A DNA stretch of 64,000 bases from Rhodococcus sp. W8901 (GTDB lineage: Bacteria; Actinomycetota; Actinomycetes; Mycobacteriales; Mycobacteriaceae). The stretch is taken from the NCBI RefSeq assembly GCF_013348805.1, contig NZ_CP054690.1:2480001-2544000 (forward strand). The letters run 5' to 3'. The notes beneath the pieces were generated by a model that saw only the letters and a program-made list of their open reading frames with translations, did not search any database and was not told the DNA's origin. Positions 8,159-15,083 of this stretch are shown here, piece after piece (the first letter of the stretch is position 1; each line of letters begins with the position of its first letter). The translations under genes and the position numbers were made by a program.

Positions 8159-9391
8159 TCAGGGCTGTGCCCGGACCGCTTCCGCGAGGATGGGCACGGT
8201 CAGTTCGCGCTGCCACGGACGCGCGCCGCCCACCGCGAGAGCCGCGTCGATCGCCGCCGACGGATCCGACTCGTCGACCGGCGGCTCCCAGCAGATCCGA
8301 CGCACCAGGTCGGGGCTGAGCAGGTTCTCGACAGGCACCTGCGCTCGCTCGCTGAGTTCGGTGATGCCGGCCTTGGCGGCGTTCAGGCGTGCGGCCGCCT
8401 CGGGGTCGCGCTTGGCCCATCGGCTGGGCGGCGGCGGCCCGGTGAAGGGCTGATTGATCGGGGGCAGTTCCGTCTGCGGCAGCGCACGGGCGCGCTCGAG
8501 AGCGGACAGCCACAGCCGTGACGACCGGCGCTGGCGCGGTCCGCCGAAAACGGGCAGGGCCCGTAGCGTCTCCATGCTCTTGGGATCGGCGCTCGCCGCG
8601 GCGACGATCGCCGAGTCCGGCAGGATGCGACTGGGGGAGATGTCGCGCTTGCGGGCCACCTCGTCGCGCGCGGTCCACAACTCGCGGACCGCGGCGAGTT
8701 GGCGGGGGCTCTTGAGGCTGTGGATCTGTGACGTCCGCCGCCACCGCTCCGGCTTGGGCTGCGGCGGTCCGGCGAGCCGGACGTGCTCGAACTCCTGCCT
8801 CGCCCATTCCGTCTTGTCCTGGGATGCAAGCTCTTTCGCCATGGCGTCCTGGAGCTCGAGGAGTACCTCGACGTCGAGGGCTGCGTAGTTGAGCCATGCG
8901 TCGGGCAGCGGACGCGACGACCAGTCGGCCGCCCCGTGACCCTTGCGGAGCTCGAGCCCGAGCGTGCGTTCGACGATCGCGGCCAGGCCCACGCGTTCGA
9001 AGCCGGCGAGCCGTCCGGCCAGTTCGGTGTCGAACAGTGCGGCCGGTTCGAGGCCGAGTTCGGCGAGACACGGCAGATCCTGGTCGGCGGAGTGCAGCAC
9101 CCACTCGAGGTCGTTGATCGCGTCACGAAGGGGTGCCAGATCCTCCGACGTCGGAATCGGATCGAGTAGGAACGTGCCGGCGCCGGCACGCCGCAACTGC
9201 ACCAGGTACGCGCGGGACGAGTAGCGGAATCCGGACGCGCGCTCCGCGTCGACGGCGAGGGGGCCGGTGCCCGCGGCGATGCGCTCGGCGGCGTCGCGGA
9301 CGCCGTCGGCCGTCTCGATCACCGGCGGCACCCCGTCTGCCGGAACCAGTAGTGGTACGGGGACGGGGGTGGGCTCGGTGGTATCTGGCAT
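8159..9391 (-). CDS. rnd: Ribonuclease D-like 3'-5' exonuclease with HRDC domain
   Basis: 410 residues from the ATG at 9391 (start of MPDTTEPTPV). A GTG twelve codons earlier also keeps the frame; neither has a clear Shine-Dalgarno. The DEDDy exonuclease signature is present: LAVDAERASGFRY (Exo I), VLHSADQDLPCL (Exo II) and YAALDVEVLLEL (Exo III with Tyr and Asp). A helical HRDC domain follows (about 215-300). This type trims 3' ends of structured RNA such as tRNA precursors. It corresponds to mycobacterial Rv2681, which in that genus adjoins the DUF3000 gene; here three lipid genes lie between them. Confidence 0.88.
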   Translation of the reverse strand: MPDTTEPTPVPVPLLVPADGVPPVIETADGVRDAAERIAAGTGPLAVDAERASGFRYSSRAYLVQLRRAGAGTFLLDPIPTSEDLAPLRDAINDLEWVLHSADQDLPCLAELGLEPAALFDTELAGRLAGFERVGLAAIVERTLGLELRKGHGAADWSSRPLPDAWLNYAALDVEVLLELQDAMAKELASQDKTEWARQEFEHVRLAGPPQPKPERWRRTSQIHSLKSPRQLAAVRELWTARDEVARKRDISPSRILPDSAIVAAASADPKSMETLRALPVFGGPRQRRSSRLWLSALERARALPQTELPPINQPFTGPPPPSRWAKRDPEAAARLNAAKAGITELSERAQVPVENLLSPDLVRRICWEPPVDESDPSAAIDAALAVGGARPWQRELTVPILAEAVRAQP

Positions 9392-9585
9392 AGGGGGCAA
9401 CTCTACGTGGCGAGGGCGCGATCTCACGTCGAGATCTGCGCGTCGCGCGGCAATTCTGTCAAAAAGTTGAACATGTGACCAAGACCACTCCGGCGGGTGA
9501 CGGTGCCTGGTCGGCGCACCGACCGGCCCGTCGGTGCGCCCGGGCGGAATGTCGGAATCGCTCGCGGGCAGTGCGGCCCATGAGG

Positions 9586-9599
9586 TAGAACGAGTTCCA
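9586..9599. promoter_or_regulatory. KstR-type operator upstream of the alpha/beta hydrolase
   Basis: The 14-mer TAGAACGAGTTCCA matches the published KstR motif TnnAACnnGTTnnA at every fixed position. It lies 58 bp before the hydrolase ATG at 9658. The site at 11893-11906 has the same outer sequence (TAGAAC-nn-GTTCCA). KstR is the TetR-family repressor of sterol and lipid catabolism genes in Rhodococcus and Mycobacterium. The motif match is seen; regulation by KstR is inferred. Confidence 0.65.
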
Positions 9600-9657
9600 G
9601 TTTTGTCCGCTCGGCTTCTCCGGGCGGATCGAGGACACCTGATCGGAAGGCAGATCG

Positions 9658-10509
9658 ATGCTCAACCTTGCGGCCGCCGTCGCTCCCGTCGGCGAGGTGC
9701 CGGCCGGGTCCATGGTGGAGTTACCGGGCCGGGGCAGCACCTACGTCATCGATACGGGTGCCACCCCGGAGAACCGTGGAAAGCCGACGCTGGTGCTGCT
9801 GCACGCGCTCGCGTGCACCGGCACGCTGACGTGGTACCCGGCCATCGCCAAGCTCGCGGCGAAGTCGCGGGTGGTGGTCCTCGATCAGCGTTGGCACGGG
9901 CGTGGCATCCGCTCGGAGCGATTCACGCTCGAGGACTGCGCCGACGACGTCGTCGCGCTCGCCGACACTCTGGAGCTCGACCGTGTCGTGCCGGTCGGGT
10001 ACTCGATGGGTTCGTTGGTCTCGCAGCTCACGTGGAAGCGGCACCGCGACCGCGTCGCGGGTCTGGTGCTGTGCGCGGGCGCGGCGCACTTCAAGCGGAA
10101 CTCGCGTGAACGGGTGGCGCTCGAATCGCTCAGTGCGGGGCTCGGTGCGCTCAAGCCGCGTCCCGGTCCGGTCCCGGTCGGCGGGCCGCGGTTCGGCGGA
10201 GATCGGGTGTGGGCGTACTCCCAGTTCCGGGAGACCAGTTACGGCGCGATCGGTCGGGCCACCGCCGAGATCGGCAAGTTCGATTCGACGGCGTGGGTCG
10301 GCGACATCGACGTCCCCACCGCCGTCGTGGTGCCCACGAAGGACCTGATCATCCCCCCGCGGCGCCAGCGCTGGCTCGCTCGCCAGATCGCCGGCGCCGC
10401 CACGTACGAGGTGGACTGCGGTCACTCGTCGTGCGTCATGAACGCCGGGCCGTTCACCGAGGGACTGCTGGCTGCTTCTTCTTCCGTGCTTGCGCGCGTG
10501 CGGCCTTGA
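9658..10509 (+). CDS. Alpha/beta hydrolase, possible lipase or esterase
   Basis: 283 residues from ATG, with GGAAGG about 7 nt upstream. The alpha/beta-hydrolase core is intact: an LLHALACTGTLTWYPAIAKLA oxyanion region, nucleophile elbow VGYSMGSLV (Ser), acid in PTKDLIIPP and His in VDCGHSSCVMNAG. No signal peptide is evident, so it is probably cytoplasmic. Its last 56 bp overlap tail-to-tail with the WS/DGAT gene on the other strand. A KstR-type operator lies upstream, which suggests a role in ester or lipid breakdown. Substrate cannot be read from sequence. Confidence 0.85.
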   Translation: MLNLAAAVAPVGEVPAGSMVELPGRGSTYVIDTGATPENRGKPTLVLLHALACTGTLTWYPAIAKLAAKSRVVVLDQRWHGRGIRSERFTLEDCADDVVALADTLELDRVVPVGYSMGSLVSQLTWKRHRDRVAGLVLCAGAAHFKRNSRERVALESLSAGLGALKPRPGPVPVGGPRFGGDRVWAYSQFRETSYGAIGRATAEIGKFDSTAWVGDIDVPTAVVVPTKDLIIPPRRQRWLARQIAGAATYEVDCGHSSCVMNAGPFTEGLLAASSSVLARVRP

Positions 10510-11881
10510 CGAGTTCGGCCAGGGCCGCCGGGAACGCGTCCGCCAGATCCCACAGGTGCGGCGCGAGTTCCTTGCAGGAGACCAGGCCCACGTCGAGTCG
10601 GCCCTCGAGCGACATCACCGTCACGTTGAGGCCGGCGCCGTGGAAGACCGGTCCGAGCGGATACATCTGCTTGATGCGCGCGCCCAGGAAGTAGAGCGGC
10701 ATCGGCGGGCCGGGGACGTTCGAGACCACGAGGTTGTGCACCACGGGGTGACGCTCGGCCAGCTTCAGCTTGGAGTACACCCGCATCGCGCTGCCGAACG
10801 TGGCCGGCGCCGCGAACTGCGCCCAGTCCTGCAGCAGGGTCGCGCCCAGCGCCTCGTTGTGGTGGTCCTTGTTGATCGCGTTGTGCTCGGCGATGAAGTG
10901 CAGCCGCTCGACCGGATCGGCGATGTCGGTCCCGAGCTGGGTGAACATGACCGAGATCTGGTTGGTGCCCGGACGGTCCGACTTGTCGTGGACGGAGACC
11001 GGTACCGTCGCGACCAGTGAGCTGTCGGGGAGTTCGTTGCGGTCCTCGAGGTACTTGCGCAGCGCGCCGGCGCACATCGTCAGCACGACGTCGTTGACCT
11101 TGACGCCGAAAGCGTTCTTGACGAGCTTGACGTCGTCGAGGCTCAGTTCGTTGTACGCGATGGTCCGGCGTCCGGTGATCGCGCCGTTGAACGAGGTGCG
11201 CGGCGCGGTGAACGGCGTCGGCATCGCCTCGCCCTTGCGGGCCCGCCCGATCCAGTTCGGCAGCAGCGACACGCTGTCCGGGAGCAGCTTCGCCATCTTC
11301 AATGGTCGCGTGGCGAACGACAGCAGGCCGTTGACGGCGATGTCGAGTGAGCTCGCGCGACCGGCTCCCTCGGGAAGCTGATCGAACTCGGGCCTGGGGG
11401 CGTCGGGCTCGAGCCCGCACAGCTGTGACATGAGGTTGGAGCCGGTGACACCGTCGACGTTGGCGTGGTGCATCTTCGACATCACGGCTACCGAGCCGTC
11501 TTCGAGGCCCTCGATGACGAACATTTCCCACAGCGGGCGGGTGCGGTCCATGGGCTGGCTGGCGATCGAACTGCACATTTCCGAAAGCTCGTCACGGCCG
11601 CCCGGCGCGGGTACCGCGATCCGGTGGAAGTGGCGATCGATGTCGAAGTCGGTGTCGTCGACCCACACGGGGTGGTCCAGGTTGAAGCGCGTGTCCTTGA
11701 GCCGACGCTTGAAGCTCGGCATCGATTTGACGCGAACGGCCAACTCGTCTCGCAGCTTTGCGAAAGAATAGCCACCCGGGATGGTGGACCCGTCGAGAAT
11801 GATGAGGCCACACACGTGAAGCATCTGGGTCGGGGTTTCGAGATAGAGGAAGCTGGCATCCAATCCACTGAGTCTCTCCAT
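10454..11881 (-). CDS. Wax ester synthase/diacylglycerol acyltransferase (WS/DGAT) family
   Basis: 475 residues from the ATG at 11881 (MERLSGLDASFLYLETP, the usual start of this family); upstream in-frame codons are not needed. The acyltransferase motif HHANVDG (HHxxxDG) lies in MSKMHHANVDGVTG, with catalytic second His. The C-terminal WES domain carries the conserved NVPGPPMPLY-type stretch (VVSNVPGPPMPLYFLGA). It esterifies diacylglycerol or alcohols with acyl-CoA to make storage triacylglycerol or wax, at the membrane/lipid-droplet surface. It is divergent from a LipM-like esterase, as in the mycobacterial Rv2285/Rv2284 pair. There is no clear Shine-Dalgarno; TACCGT at 11889-11894 could serve as -10 of a leaderless transcript. 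Its 3' end overlaps the hydrolase gene. Confidence 0.93.
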   Translation of the reverse strand: MERLSGLDASFLYLETPTQMLHVCGLIILDGSTIPGGYSFAKLRDELAVRVKSMPSFKRRLKDTRFNLDHPVWVDDTDFDIDRHFHRIAVPAPGGRDELSEMCSSIASQPMDRTRPLWEMFVIEGLEDGSVAVMSKMHHANVDGVTGSNLMSQLCGLEPDAPRPEFDQLPEGAGRASSLDIAVNGLLSFATRPLKMAKLLPDSVSLLPNWIGRARKGEAMPTPFTAPRTSFNGAITGRRTIAYNELSLDDVKLVKNAFGVKVNDVVLTMCAGALRKYLEDRNELPDSSLVATVPVSVHDKSDRPGTNQISVMFTQLGTDIADPVERLHFIAEHNAINKDHHNEALGATLLQDWAQFAAPATFGSAMRVYSKLKLAERHPVVHNLVVSNVPGPPMPLYFLGARIKQMYPLGPVFHGAGLNVTVMSLEGRLDVGLVSCKELAPHLWDLADAFPAALAELVKAARAQARKKKQPAVPR

Positions 11882-11892
11882 GCAGCTAACGG

Positions 11893-11906
11893 TAGAACCT
11901 GTTCCA
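11893..11906. promoter_or_regulatory. KstR-type operator between the WS/DGAT gene and the lipM-like gene
   Basis: TAGAACCTGTTCCA matches TnnAACnnGTTnnA at all eight fixed positions and shares its flanks with the site at 9586-9599. It starts 12 bp from the acyltransferase ATG and overlaps the candidate -10 at 11889-11894. A further AACAGGTT core with 7-bp arms (TAACAGG-TT-CCTGTTA, 11962-11977) lies in the first codons of the lipM-like gene. Confidence 0.65.
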
Positions 11907-11950
11907 TTTTGACGTGGGCGTTGTGACAAACATCATGGTTAAATAGGTTT

Positions 11951-13264
11951 ATGAGGATTGATAACAGGTTCCTGTTACGTCAGGTGGCAAATACTGCGCT
12001 GACGGCCAACGCGCTGCGACCGGTGCCGGGGATGCCGATGTCGGTGCCGACGTTCCTGTCCGGATGGCTGACCACGGAACTCGCTCCTCAGTTGCTTGCT
12101 GCGACCGCGGCCGATGCTGCTGTCCACGTCGCCCGCCACGGCGTCCGGAGTCGCGGCGACGCCGTCGGACTCGCCGCCGCCGGGGCTTCGATCGCGGGAC
12201 TCGCAGCCGTGATCGCGACCGGACGTGGGGCGCGGGCCGAGGTGGAGTCGGCGCTCGAATCGGCGTTGGGACCCGACTATCGATCGGTGGGCGGCGCGGC
12301 GCGTCCGGTCCCGCAGACGCCGTGGCGGCAGTTGGCGTTCCCGTTCCGGATGCGCCGGGACGACGTCGTGCGGGTGAAGAACCTGGACTATGCGCCCGGC
12401 GGTCGACGATTCCGGATCGACATCTACCACCGCCGGGACACTCCGGCGAATGCGCCTGTCCTGCTGCAGATCCACGGTGGCGGGTGGGTCATCGGCACCA
12501 AGGATCATCAGGGCATCCCGCTGATGCTGGAGATGGCGTCGCGTGGGTGGGTGTGCGCCGCGATCAACTATCCGCTGTCGCCGAAGGCGGTGTGGCCGGA
12601 GCACCTCATCGCCATCAAGCGGGCGGTCTCGTGGTTGCGCGGCAATGTCGCCCGGTTCGGCGGGGATCCCGATTTCATCGCTGTCACCGGCGGTTCGGCC
12701 GGCGGCCACTTGGCAGCGATGTTGGCGTTGACGGGTGGCGACGCCGGCCTGCAACCCGGTTTCGAGGATGCGGACACCTCGGTCCAGGCGTGCGCCCCGC
12801 ACTACGGCGTGTACGACTTCGCGGGAGAGACGGGGATCAAGGCGACACGTCAGCGGGTCGAATCCGCGCTCTCACCGATGGTGCTGGGCAAGAAGGCGCA
12901 GTTCCCGCGGGACTACCTCGCGGCGTCGCCGCGTGCGCACCTGCGCGAGGATGCGCCCCCGTTCTTCGTGGTGCACGGGACCAGCGACTCGTTCATTCCC
13001 GTCGCCGAGGCCCGCGAGTTCGTCGATCGTCTGCGTGAGGTGTCGGCGAATCCGGTGGCGTACGCCGAGCTGCGGGGCGCCCAGCACGCGTTCGACATCT
13101 TCCCGTCCATCCGGAGTTTCCGGGTGGCGCAGGGTGTCGCCGACTTCCTCGACTGGGCGCACGCCCGCCGGCTGTCGGCGGGCGTCCCGGGGCATGCCGG
13201 CACCCGAGCCGGCGCAGCGGACACCGTGGATGCGGACGATGTGGACGAGGAAGGGACGGGTTAG
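11951..13264 (+). CDS. LipM/LipC-like esterase of the hormone-sensitive-lipase family
   Basis: 437 residues from ATG. An N-terminal ~110-residue segment with hydrophobic helices (LTTELAPQLLAATAADAA, AVGLAAAGASIAGLAAVIATG) suggests membrane association. The catalytic domain shows the HSL-family oxyanion motif IHGGGWVIG (near 174), nucleophile in VTGGSAGGHLAAM (near 247), acid in HGTSDSFIPV and His in GAQHAFDIFP. It would hydrolyse short- to medium-chain acyl esters. It is divergent from the WS/DGAT gene; that pairing and the N-terminal extension resemble mycobacterial LipM. The C-terminal tail is Asp-rich. The KstR-like box in the shared promoter links it to lipid turnover. Confidence 0.88.
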   Translation: MRIDNRFLLRQVANTALTANALRPVPGMPMSVPTFLSGWLTTELAPQLLAATAADAAVHVARHGVRSRGDAVGLAAAGASIAGLAAVIATGRGARAEVESALESALGPDYRSVGGAARPVPQTPWRQLAFPFRMRRDDVVRVKNLDYAPGGRRFRIDIYHRRDTPANAPVLLQIHGGGWVIGTKDHQGIPLMLEMASRGWVCAAINYPLSPKAVWPEHLIAIKRAVSWLRGNVARFGGDPDFIAVTGGSAGGHLAAMLALTGGDAGLQPGFEDADTSVQACAPHYGVYDFAGETGIKATRQRVESALSPMVLGKKAQFPRDYLAASPRAHLREDAPPFFVVHGTSDSFIPVAEAREFVDRLREVSANPVAYAELRGAQHAFDIFPSIRSFRVAQGVADFLDWAHARRLSAGVPGHAGTRAGAADTVDADDVDEEGTG

Positions 13265-13309: not shown

Positions 13310-13897
13310 TCAGGGCCGCCGACCCAGCCTCGCGATTCCGGCCGGCGGCAGGCCGGCGGCGTAGGCGAGGACCTCGCAGAAGGCCTCGACATGGGAGGCC
13401 AGGGCGGTGGACGTCGCCGTCCACGACGCCCGGAGCTCGAGTTGATGGGCCCGCGGTGGCCCCGCGATGTCGCCGTACCGTACCGAGCTGGTCGCCGTCA
13501 CCGTGCCGCCGAGCGCGACCACCTCGTCGGCCCGCTCGTCGAGGGCGTCGACCAGCCAGCTCCACGCAACCTCGGGGAGGAGGGGATCGGCGGCGAGGGC
13601 CGGCTCGAGGTCGGCCTGGATGTAGGCGACCAGCCGCATGGTGCCGTTCCACGCCTCGTCGCCGTCGGGATCGTGAAGCAGGATCAGGCGTCCGAATGCG
13701 TCCCCTTCGGACTGCTCCGCGACGGCCGCGTCGTCGGGGTGGCGGACCTCCGCGCCGATCGCGTAGCTGAACGGCGCGAGGCGCTGCGGGGGACGGATCG
13801 GGCCGAGCTCGATATCCGGGTGAACCTCGGCCGAGTTCATCGCGTCGACAGCGGCGCGGAACTGGGCTGGTTCGTTGGGTAATCCCGGGGTCGTCAC
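13310..13897 (-). CDS. DUF3000 family protein
   Basis: 195 residues from the GTG at 13897 (VTTPGLPNEPAQFRAAV). The frame stays open further upstream, but that part runs into the divergent hemE gene. The protein matches the actinobacterial DUF3000 family, the counterpart of Rv2680, recognised from its position between rnd and hemE and from the RPPQRLAPFSYAIGAEV, GRLILLHDPDGDEAWNGTMRLVAYI and WSWLVDALDERA stretches. No catalytic motif or membrane segment is seen. Function unknown; conserved linkage to heme genes is suggestive only. Confidence 0.8.
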   Translation of the reverse strand: MTTPGLPNEPAQFRAAVDAMNSAEVHPDIELGPIRPPQRLAPFSYAIGAEVRHPDDAAVAEQSEGDAFGRLILLHDPDGDEAWNGTMRLVAYIQADLEPALAADPLLPEVAWSWLVDALDERADEVVALGGTVTATSSVRYGDIAGPPRAHQLELRASWTATSTALASHVEAFCEVLAYAAGLPPAGIARLGRRP

Positions 13898-13985
13898 ACC
13901 AGCGGACGTTAGACGCCGCACCTGGTAGGGCGTCGGAGGCGCGCCGATTCCGCCCCGGCGCCGGGCCATGGCAGCATGGAGCCCG

Positions 13986-15083
13986 ATGAGCGGCTTGGAA
14001 GATACGAATGCAGGTATGACCGGGCGTGCCGAGTACCCGTCTCGACGGGTCCTGGGCGACGCACCGTTGTTGGCGGCGGCCACCGGCCGTCCGGTGAAGC
14101 ATCGACCCGTGTGGTTCATGCGTCAGGCCGGACGCTCGTTGCCGGAGTACCGGGAGATCCGGGCGGGAATCGGGATGCTCGAGTCCTGCTTCGATCCCGA
14201 GTTGGTCTGCGAGATCACGATGCAGCCCGTGCGGCGGCACAAGGTCGACGCGGCGATCCTGTTCTCCGACATCGTCGTTCCGCTGAAGGCTGCGGGCATC
14301 GACCTCGACATCGTGGCCGGTGTCGGACCCGTCGTCGCGAACCCCGTGCGGACCACCGCCGACGTCGCGGCGCTGCCCCGCCTGGTTCCCGACGAGGTCG
14401 GCGCCGTGTCGCAGGCTGTCCGGCTGCTCACCGCCGAGCTCGGCGAGACGCCGCTGATCGGTTTCGCCGGTGCCCCGTTCACGCTCGCGTCGTACCTGGT
14501 CGAGGGCGGCCCGAGTCGCAACCACGAGCGCACCAAGGCGCTCATGCACGCCGATCCCAAGACCTGGCACGCGCTCCTCGGCACCATCACCGACACCACC
14601 ATCGCGTTCCTGCAGGCGCAGCTGCATGCCGGCGTCGACGCGGTCCAGTTGTTCGATTCGTGGGCGGGCGCGCTGTCGCTGGCCGAGTACCGCGAGTTCG
14701 TGCTGCCGCACTCGGAGCGGGTGTTCGCCGAGGTCGAGTCGGCCCAGGTGCCGCGCATCCACTTCGGTGTCGGCACCGGTGAACTCCTCGGTGCGATGGG
14801 CGAGGCCGGCGCCGACGTCGTCGGCGTCGACTGGCGGATCCCGCTGGACGTCGCCGCCCGCCGCGTCGGGCCAGGCAAGGGGCTGCAGGGCAACCTCGAT
14901 CCCGCCGTCCTGTTCGCGGGCTGGCCCGCGATCGAGAAGCAGGTGCGGCGCATCGCCGCGGAGGCGGACGCCGCGATCGCGGCCGGCGCCACCGGGCACA
15001 TCTTCAACCTCGGCCACGGCGTGCTGCCGGAGACCGATCCGGCCGTGCTCACCGACGTCGTGGAGCTGGTGCATTCGTTGTGA
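13986..15083 (+). CDS. hemE: Uroporphyrinogen decarboxylase
   Basis: 365 residues from the ATG at 13986, with GGAG 5 nt upstream; an ATG at 14016 is an alternative and one at 13968 is less likely. Signatures: [22 protein letters not shown] (substrate-binding Arg) and [20 protein letters not shown] with the catalytic Asp, plus [17 protein letters not shown]. It removes four acetate carboxyls from uroporphyrinogen III to give coproporphyrinogen III in the cytoplasm. It is first in a hemE-cgoX-hemQ operon joined by 4-bp overlaps, so the product passes to the next enzyme. Confidence 0.96.

Follow-up and report, generated by a model that had tools for sequence, protein, structure and literature searches.

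In mycobacteria, the KstR regulon (Kendall et al. 2007, PMC1995591) is marked by a palindromic operator that, in the passages of that paper considered, also occurs at divergent genes, and the operator in the kstR promoter overlaps a putative -10 element. In the passages considered from PMC3388012, the conservation of KstR sites extends to Rhodococcus and Nocardia, with many lipid genes close to such sites, so that new members of the regulon are expected in kind. According to the relevant passages of a review (PMC8401914), Rhodococcus jostii RHA1, when supplied with sterols and limited for nitrogen, accumulates triacylglycerol (TAG) together with steryl esters, the latter at up to 7% of dry weight, and oleaginous rhodococci carry many WS/DGAT genes whose individual roles are unclear. 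The 64,000-nucleotide stretch analyzed here (the window; Rhodococcus sp. W8901, contig NZ_CP054690.1, positions 2,480,001 to 2,544,000) contains a block of three genes, predicted to encode an alpha/beta hydrolase, a WS/DGAT acyltransferase, and a LipM-like esterase, with the palindrome of the mycobacterial regulon at two sites. The favored reading, given a rough probability of 0.72, is that both sites are KstR operators, that KstR represses the block until sterols are catabolized, and that the WS/DGAT makes acyl esters which the hydrolases cleave. The block would thereby add new members to the known KstR regulon, with a gene content that appears widely conserved beside sterol genes. Its features are as follows.

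9586..9599, no strand assigned: site 1, KstR-type operator TAGAACGAGTTCCA, exact motif 5' of the hydrolase gene
9658..10509, + strand: alpha/beta hydrolase, 283 aa; Pfam Abhydrolase_1 and Abhydrolase_6, GYSMG in the translation
10454..11881, - strand: WS/DGAT acyltransferase, 475 aa; TIGR02946 at 505.4 bits, HHANVDG; convergent with the hydrolase gene and overlapping its end
11889..11894, - strand: candidate -10 TACCGT of the WS/DGAT promoter, sharing two bases (TA) with site 2
11893..11906, no strand assigned: site 2, KstR-type operator TAGAACCTGTTCCA, exact motif in the divergent gap between the WS/DGAT and LipM-like genes
11951..13264, + strand: LipM-like esterase (HSL type), 437 aa; Pfam BD-FAE and Abhydrolase_3, HGGG and GGSAG

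Both 14-mers matched all fixed bases of TnnAACnnGTTnnA and shared the same outer 12 bases, as an original prediction made from the sequence had stated, and they were the only exact matches in the window. Shuffled versions of the window contained a mean of 0.10 matches, and two were reached in 1 of 100 shuffles, in agreement with the earlier claim that two promoter matches are unlikely by chance. The promoter placement was also borne out, with the hydrolase ATG lying 58 bases past the end of site 1 and site 2 lying inside a divergent gap of 69 bases, separated by 11 bases from the start of WS/DGAT and by 44 bases from the ATG of the LipM-like gene. A KstR matrix, which the prediction had proposed for a genome scan, was built from 46 of 47 published sites (PMC1995591), a site negative by electrophoretic mobility shift assay being excluded, and was applied to the window and to 50 of the genomic matches. 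Site 2 had a typical score (22.2 bits, versus a training median of 23.4), and its 14-mer is identical to the core that Table 3 of that paper gives for MSMEG_3515/3516. Site 1 scored 17.7 bits; the third-best window position, at 9.6 bits, was far below both. Among 50 of the 64 genomic matches to TnnAACnnGTTnnA, site 2 ranked 19th and site 1 ranked 31st by the matrix. A longer WS/DGAT frame with a TTG start at 11929, which would include site 2, is unlikely, since locus L162 has one extra base in this gap and the alignment of homologues begins at the later ATG. The palindrome GATAACAGGTTCCT (11960-11973), which is half degenerate and lies at the beginning of the LipM-like reading frame, had the fifth-best window score (8.6 bits).

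Across the genome (a single contig of 5.71 Mb), the 64 matches to TnnAACnnGTTnnA compared with 8 for the reversed pattern, and the tighter pattern TNGAACNNGTTCNA gave 20 matches compared with 0 for its control, with sites 1 and 2 accounting for two of the 20. The genome encodes a KstR of 205 residues (L011:822-1436; match to KstR in the PDB, 2e-88), the only KstR-like protein found in it at an E value of 1e-20 or better. The sequence TAGAACACGTTCTA lies between kstR and a divergent acyl-CoA dehydrogenase gene, here taken by position to be fadE34. Outside the window there are 18 tight sites, 10 of them intergenic and 8 within a called gene, based on rough gene calls, and some of the 20 may not be operators. 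The neighboring genes identified by family searches included a thiolase, an SDR, a FAD-binding protein, an alcohol dehydrogenase, and an HsaD-like hydrolase, as well as cysD; the tight match before cysD (TGGAACCGGTTCTA, G000:C1:2112920-2112933) is possibly due to chance. A KstR-related regulator of approximately 35% identity, present in most other members of the genus at 1e-20, was not found here at that cutoff.

Conservation was assessed in loci from 33 other genomes, out of 201 sampled genomes of the family, with a LipM-like match of at least 57% identity. The WS/DGAT-LipM gaps compared numbered 32, including that of the window and leaving out L179 and L180, which have no WS/DGAT gene there. 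The exact motif was present in 22 of these gaps, which represent eight genera (12/12 in g1, the genus of the window; 5/5 in g23; 2/2 in g15; 1/1 in g26; 1/2 in g17; 1/4 in g21; 0/1 in g25; and 0/5 in g13), and none of the 63 alternative palindromes with this layout occurred in any of the 32. The whole gap is conserved within the genus, so that genus counts alone say little and the weight is carried by the counts across genera. Together, the whole-genome controls and the set of all 64 same-layout palindromes rule out a chance origin of site 2, which is very probably an operator of KstR. In L167 and L169, a second copy of the motif stands at the LipM end of the gap. In two members of the genus, G011 and G013, the LipM-like gene and the hydrolase are missing from the locus, whereas WS/DGAT is still found between rnd and DUF3000, with the operator (TAGAACCAGTTCTA or TAGAACTGGTTCTA, strand as fetched) 11 bases 5' of its start in both; the operator follows WS/DGAT, at which it was found in 14 of 14 genomes of the genus when these two are counted. 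G013 (L239:6591) and G011 (L240:2143) are smaller genomes of the genus.

The consensus of the -10 element is TANNNT. In all 22 operator-bearing gaps, the first TA of the operator belongs to a TANNNT hexamer on the strand of WS/DGAT, which is probably the -10 element of a leaderless WS/DGAT promoter. The hexamer is 6 to 7 bases 5' of the WS/DGAT start in 20 of the 22 gaps, the exceptions being L185, at 18 bases, and L160, at 5 bases from a start that is truncated by a split alignment; it is likewise found at 6 to 7 bases in all 10 gaps without an exact operator. The prediction had placed site 2 over a candidate -10 element in the divergent promoter, which holds for WS/DGAT; no convincing -10 element for the LipM-like gene was found in the gap. 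An operator overlapping a putative -10 element is reported for kstR itself in the passages considered from PMC1995591, and the geometry of site 2 is therefore a known one.

The motif also recurred at the position of site 1, in 9 of 17 gaps between rnd and the hydrolase gene (g1, 6/12; g15, 2/2; g21, 1/2; g25, 0/1), compared with 1 of 17 for the best other palindrome of the same layout. Site 1 is probably a KstR operator as well, with less assurance than site 2, and the distribution of the motif suggests that it is real in some lineages and dispensable in others.

A scan of named GTDB contigs for the LipM-like protein, from which the best 80 loci (842 kb) were kept, revealed a WS/DGAT-LipM pair, often with the hydrolase, that in other families lies beside the sterol side-chain genes (igr) and beside fadE34-kstR. 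These loci contained 96 matches to the KstR pattern. Of six control patterns, five occurred 0 to 2 times each and one, which shares the AACnnGTT core, occurred 10 times. In the interval from -350 to +50 around the LipM start there were 28 KstR matches, distributed over 27 of the 80 loci, compared with 4 for the core-sharing control and 0 for the others. Seventy-two of the 80 loci lie outside the rnd context, and a sterol neighbor was counted within 5 kb. The divergent pair was present in 45 of the 72, of which 40 had a sterol neighbor (igr or fadE34-kstR) and 25 of those 40 the hydrolase too; among the 27 non-rnd loci without the pair, 6 had a sterol neighbor. Of the 46 loci that have a sterol neighbor, 21 had an operator near LipM (16 of the 40 with the pair), versus 0 of 26 without. 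In the Jatrophihabitans locus L026, the order is two FadE genes, a site, the hydrolase, WS/DGAT, a site, the LipM-like gene, a fadE34-like gene, a site, and kstR, and in L022, from a metagenome-assembled genome of Pseudonocardiales, the LipM-like gene is between the igr operon and kstR, without WS/DGAT. Flanking proteins matched PDB entries 4x28 (4.5e-110), here taken to be ChsE1-ChsE2, ChsH2 (4wnb, 3e-70), and KstR. In eight loci outside Mycobacteriaceae (L022, L026, L028, L032, L035, L037, L038, and L042), kstR is at most 5 kb from the LipM-like gene. The KstR orthologues beside igr in Jatrophihabitantaceae and Pseudonocardiaceae fall outside the Mycobacterium-Rhodococcus line in which the passages considered from PMC3388012 place the origin of KstR.

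The block appears to be an ancient part of the kstR-fadE34-igr locus. In the window genome, kstR, a site, fadE34, and four igr genes are contiguous with no block between them, the end of fadE34 being 131 bases from the first igr gene. A WS/DGAT tree of 36 rows grouped the proteins of sterol loci with those of rnd loci, apart from the four paralogues of the window genome that were included; the 13 rnd-locus rows fell on one side of a branch with a Shimodaira-Hasegawa-like approximate likelihood ratio test value of 96, from a quick method with long outgroup branches. In all four g29 genomes examined, rnd is directly next to DUF3000 and the block is absent, and g29 is presumably Mycobacterium, in which case the claim that the two genes are neighbors in mycobacteria holds. 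In two g17 loci, L182 and L185, the stretches examined around the block contained no rnd and no sterol genes. The simplest history would be that the block, together with its operators, left the sterol locus once within the family and was inserted between rnd and DUF3000, where part of the family now has it; we infer both the direction and the number of moves from this comparison.

The mechanism proposed here is built on computed sites, conservation, gene families, and synteny. When sterol is absent, KstR would occupy both sites, and at WS/DGAT it would cover the edge of the -10 element of the probably leaderless promoter and block transcription. The ligand of KstR is an early sterol side-chain acyl-CoA. 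Its formation during sterol breakdown would lift repression, so that the block would be expressed alongside the sterol pathway. WS/DGAT would then transfer an acyl group from acyl-CoA to an alcohol, most likely sterol and/or diacylglycerol, with steryl esters and/or TAG being stored, and the LipM-like esterase and the hydrolase would cleave such esters. Coregulation and colocation tie the block to sterol catabolism, and a WS/DGAT together with an HSL-type esterase points to acyl esters being made and broken; given the operators and the relatives inside sterol loci, the block probably handles fatty acid esters during life on sterols. Acyl ester chemistry is likely on the basis of the gene families. 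A steryl rather than a glyceryl ester as the main product is put at somewhat below even odds. More tentatively still, the WS/DGAT of the block may be the ACAT-like acyl-CoA:sterol acyltransferase (steryl ester synthase) of sterol-degrading actinobacteria of several families, with the LipM-like protein and the hydrolase as its steryl ester hydrolases, all switched by KstR and ancestral in the kstR-igr locus. The prediction had suggested a sterol- or lipid-responsive store-and-release module added to a conserved locus. Of this, the KstR-type operators are supported, with kstR present and site 2 conserved across genera, as is a block between rnd and DUF3000 that keeps company with sterol genes elsewhere. 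Store and release is a more tentative reading, and the retention of WS/DGAT without both hydrolases in G011 and G013 argues against an obligatory unit of that kind.

Several observations weigh against the favored reading. The score of site 1 is below the 10th percentile of the training sites (18.6 bits), making it a weaker match, and site 1 is absent in 6 of the 12 members of the genus that retain the hydrolase; the prediction was to be refuted by sites missing from close relatives that keep the genes, and this is partly such a case, while site 2 was retained in all 12 gaps of the genus. Ten of the 32 WS/DGAT-LipM gaps (in g13, g25, g21, and g17) have no exact operator, with kstR present nonetheless; loss of kstR as the cause is ruled out by a close homologue (at least 69% identity) in 36 of 36 genomes searched. 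The g1 gap is conserved throughout, with 35 of 58 columns outside the operator invariant in 10 rows of equal length. Of the 46 sterol-neighbor loci, 25 have no exact operator near LipM, all 7 pair-bearing Amycolatopsis loci among them, and no sterol-specific enzyme was among the solved-structure matches listed for the block proteins. The notion that one or both sites are functionless chance matches draws on the low score of site 1, with approximately 2.3 positions scoring as high or higher expected by chance in the genome, and on its patchy presence in the genus; it is hardly credible given that the motif of site 2 is found again in other genera, where no control motif comes close, and that site 1 has counterparts at the hydrolase gene of g15 (2/2) and g21 (1/2). 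Binding of the palindromes by another TetR regulator is also highly improbable. Regulators approximately 48 to 50% identical to KstR in five g23 genomes searched could read similar DNA, but the window genome has a single KstR-like protein at the cutoff used, with the same palindrome at its gene.

Other alternatives accept the regulation and differ over the product. Under KstR control, sterol-derived propionyl-CoA and acetyl-CoA could be built into fatty acids and stored as TAG by WS/DGAT, to be mobilized later by LipM. This has real weight, though less than an even chance: rhodococcal WS/DGATs are known for TAG, which is reported alongside steryl esters on sterols (passages of PMC8401914), and a diacylglycerol O-acyltransferase (6chj) is among the nearest solved relatives of the WS/DGAT. 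Against it, the genome has six WS/DGAT genes, of which one, the block copy, has the KstR motif nearby (with approximately 1.5 kb searched on each side of the match) and the other five could make TAG, and the pair adjoins sterol side-chain genes; TAG could come from the block all the same. That the block is mainly catabolic, with the LipM-like esterase and the hydrolase opening imported steryl or other esters and WS/DGAT merely re-esterifying the freed fatty acids, is unlikely. It would explain an HSL-type esterase and a second hydrolase within one block and the LipM-like gene without WS/DGAT in L022, but G011 and G013 retain WS/DGAT and its operator without either hydrolase. Under the favored reading, the operator on one of six WS/DGAT copies and the synteny of orthologues define one testable gene set for ester storage on sterols, and the KstR regulon would extend from breakdown to storage.

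The pairing of WS/DGAT genes with lipM, lipO, and lipQ neighbors in mycobacteria, and the gene names used for it, are assumed here. Among 20 of 26 lower-scoring LipM places that were fetched (40 to 47% identity, mostly g29), a KstR-type site was upstream in 8 loci, at -883 to -933 or -2460 to -2516, and no exact site was within 400 bases of Lip in any of the 20. Operators directly at these homologues were therefore rejected, the sites being distant and 4 of the 8 being gene-called loci with an operon that begins with a PlsC-like gene. In these four, L206 and L211 (site at about -0.9 kb) and L210 and L215 (about -2.5 kb), all probably mycobacterial, the order is the site, the PlsC-like gene (assigned by eye), in some cases FadD, and Lip, with WS/DGAT downstream in the opposite direction, unlike the divergent pair with a shared gap in the window.

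In the passages considered, PMC1995591 does not name Rv1425, Rv1426, Rv2284, Rv2285, Rv0220, or Rv0221 as KstR targets or describe a WS/DGAT-LipM target, and PMC3388012 contains no Rv1425, Rv2484, or Rv2285 and ties no acyltransferase to a KstR site. Passages of PMC7807495, PMC9782250, and PMC7593942 found by searching for acyltransferase, esterase, and lipase contained no acyltransferase, the first of these mentioning constitutive steroid esterases; the paper on steroid catabolism in R. equi (PMC3161971) contains no acyltransferase, esterase, or lipM. Ester storage on sterols by RHA1, from a related genus (Holert et al. 2020, via PMC8401914), is not linked to KstR or this block in the passages of that review, and the operator was in all five g23 gaps. 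No literature joining KstR with "wax ester synthase" was found, and no report of a KstR-controlled WS/DGAT-LipM block was found in the literature searched, which did not cover Holert et al. 2020. In the passages considered from one further paper, one acyltransferase, G155_01310, is named among phytosterol-induced genes with putative KstR sites.

The genes on either side of the block were assigned as follows.

8159..9427, - strand: rnd, left neighbor; DNA_pol_A_exo1 and HRDC, with TIGR01388 at 142.8 bits, under the cutoff of 298.95
13310..14119, - strand: DUF3000 gene, right neighbor; Pfam PF11452 at 246.7 bits, true start probably further in

Gene families thus confirmed the predicted order of hydrolase, acyltransferase, and esterase between rnd and DUF3000, and all three reading frames of the block are open. 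The WS/DGAT passes the curated TIGR02946 cutoff of 309.95 bits and has the HHxxxDG motif. The LipM-like translation has both HGGG and GxSxG, taken here as HSL-type esterase motifs. It fails the LipQ equivalog NF052354 (314.6 bits versus a cutoff of 700), and as no LipM model was matched, the name is used for family resemblance only. The hydrolase fails the PcaD enol-lactonase model TIGR02427 (104.3 bits versus a cutoff of 255.85). The matches listed in sequence searches of solved structures with the three proteins were general esterases and two WS/DGAT-type acyltransferases. The LipM-like protein is 88% identical to that of P. defluvii and 78% identical to that of P. equi, the nearest named relatives (Prescottella).

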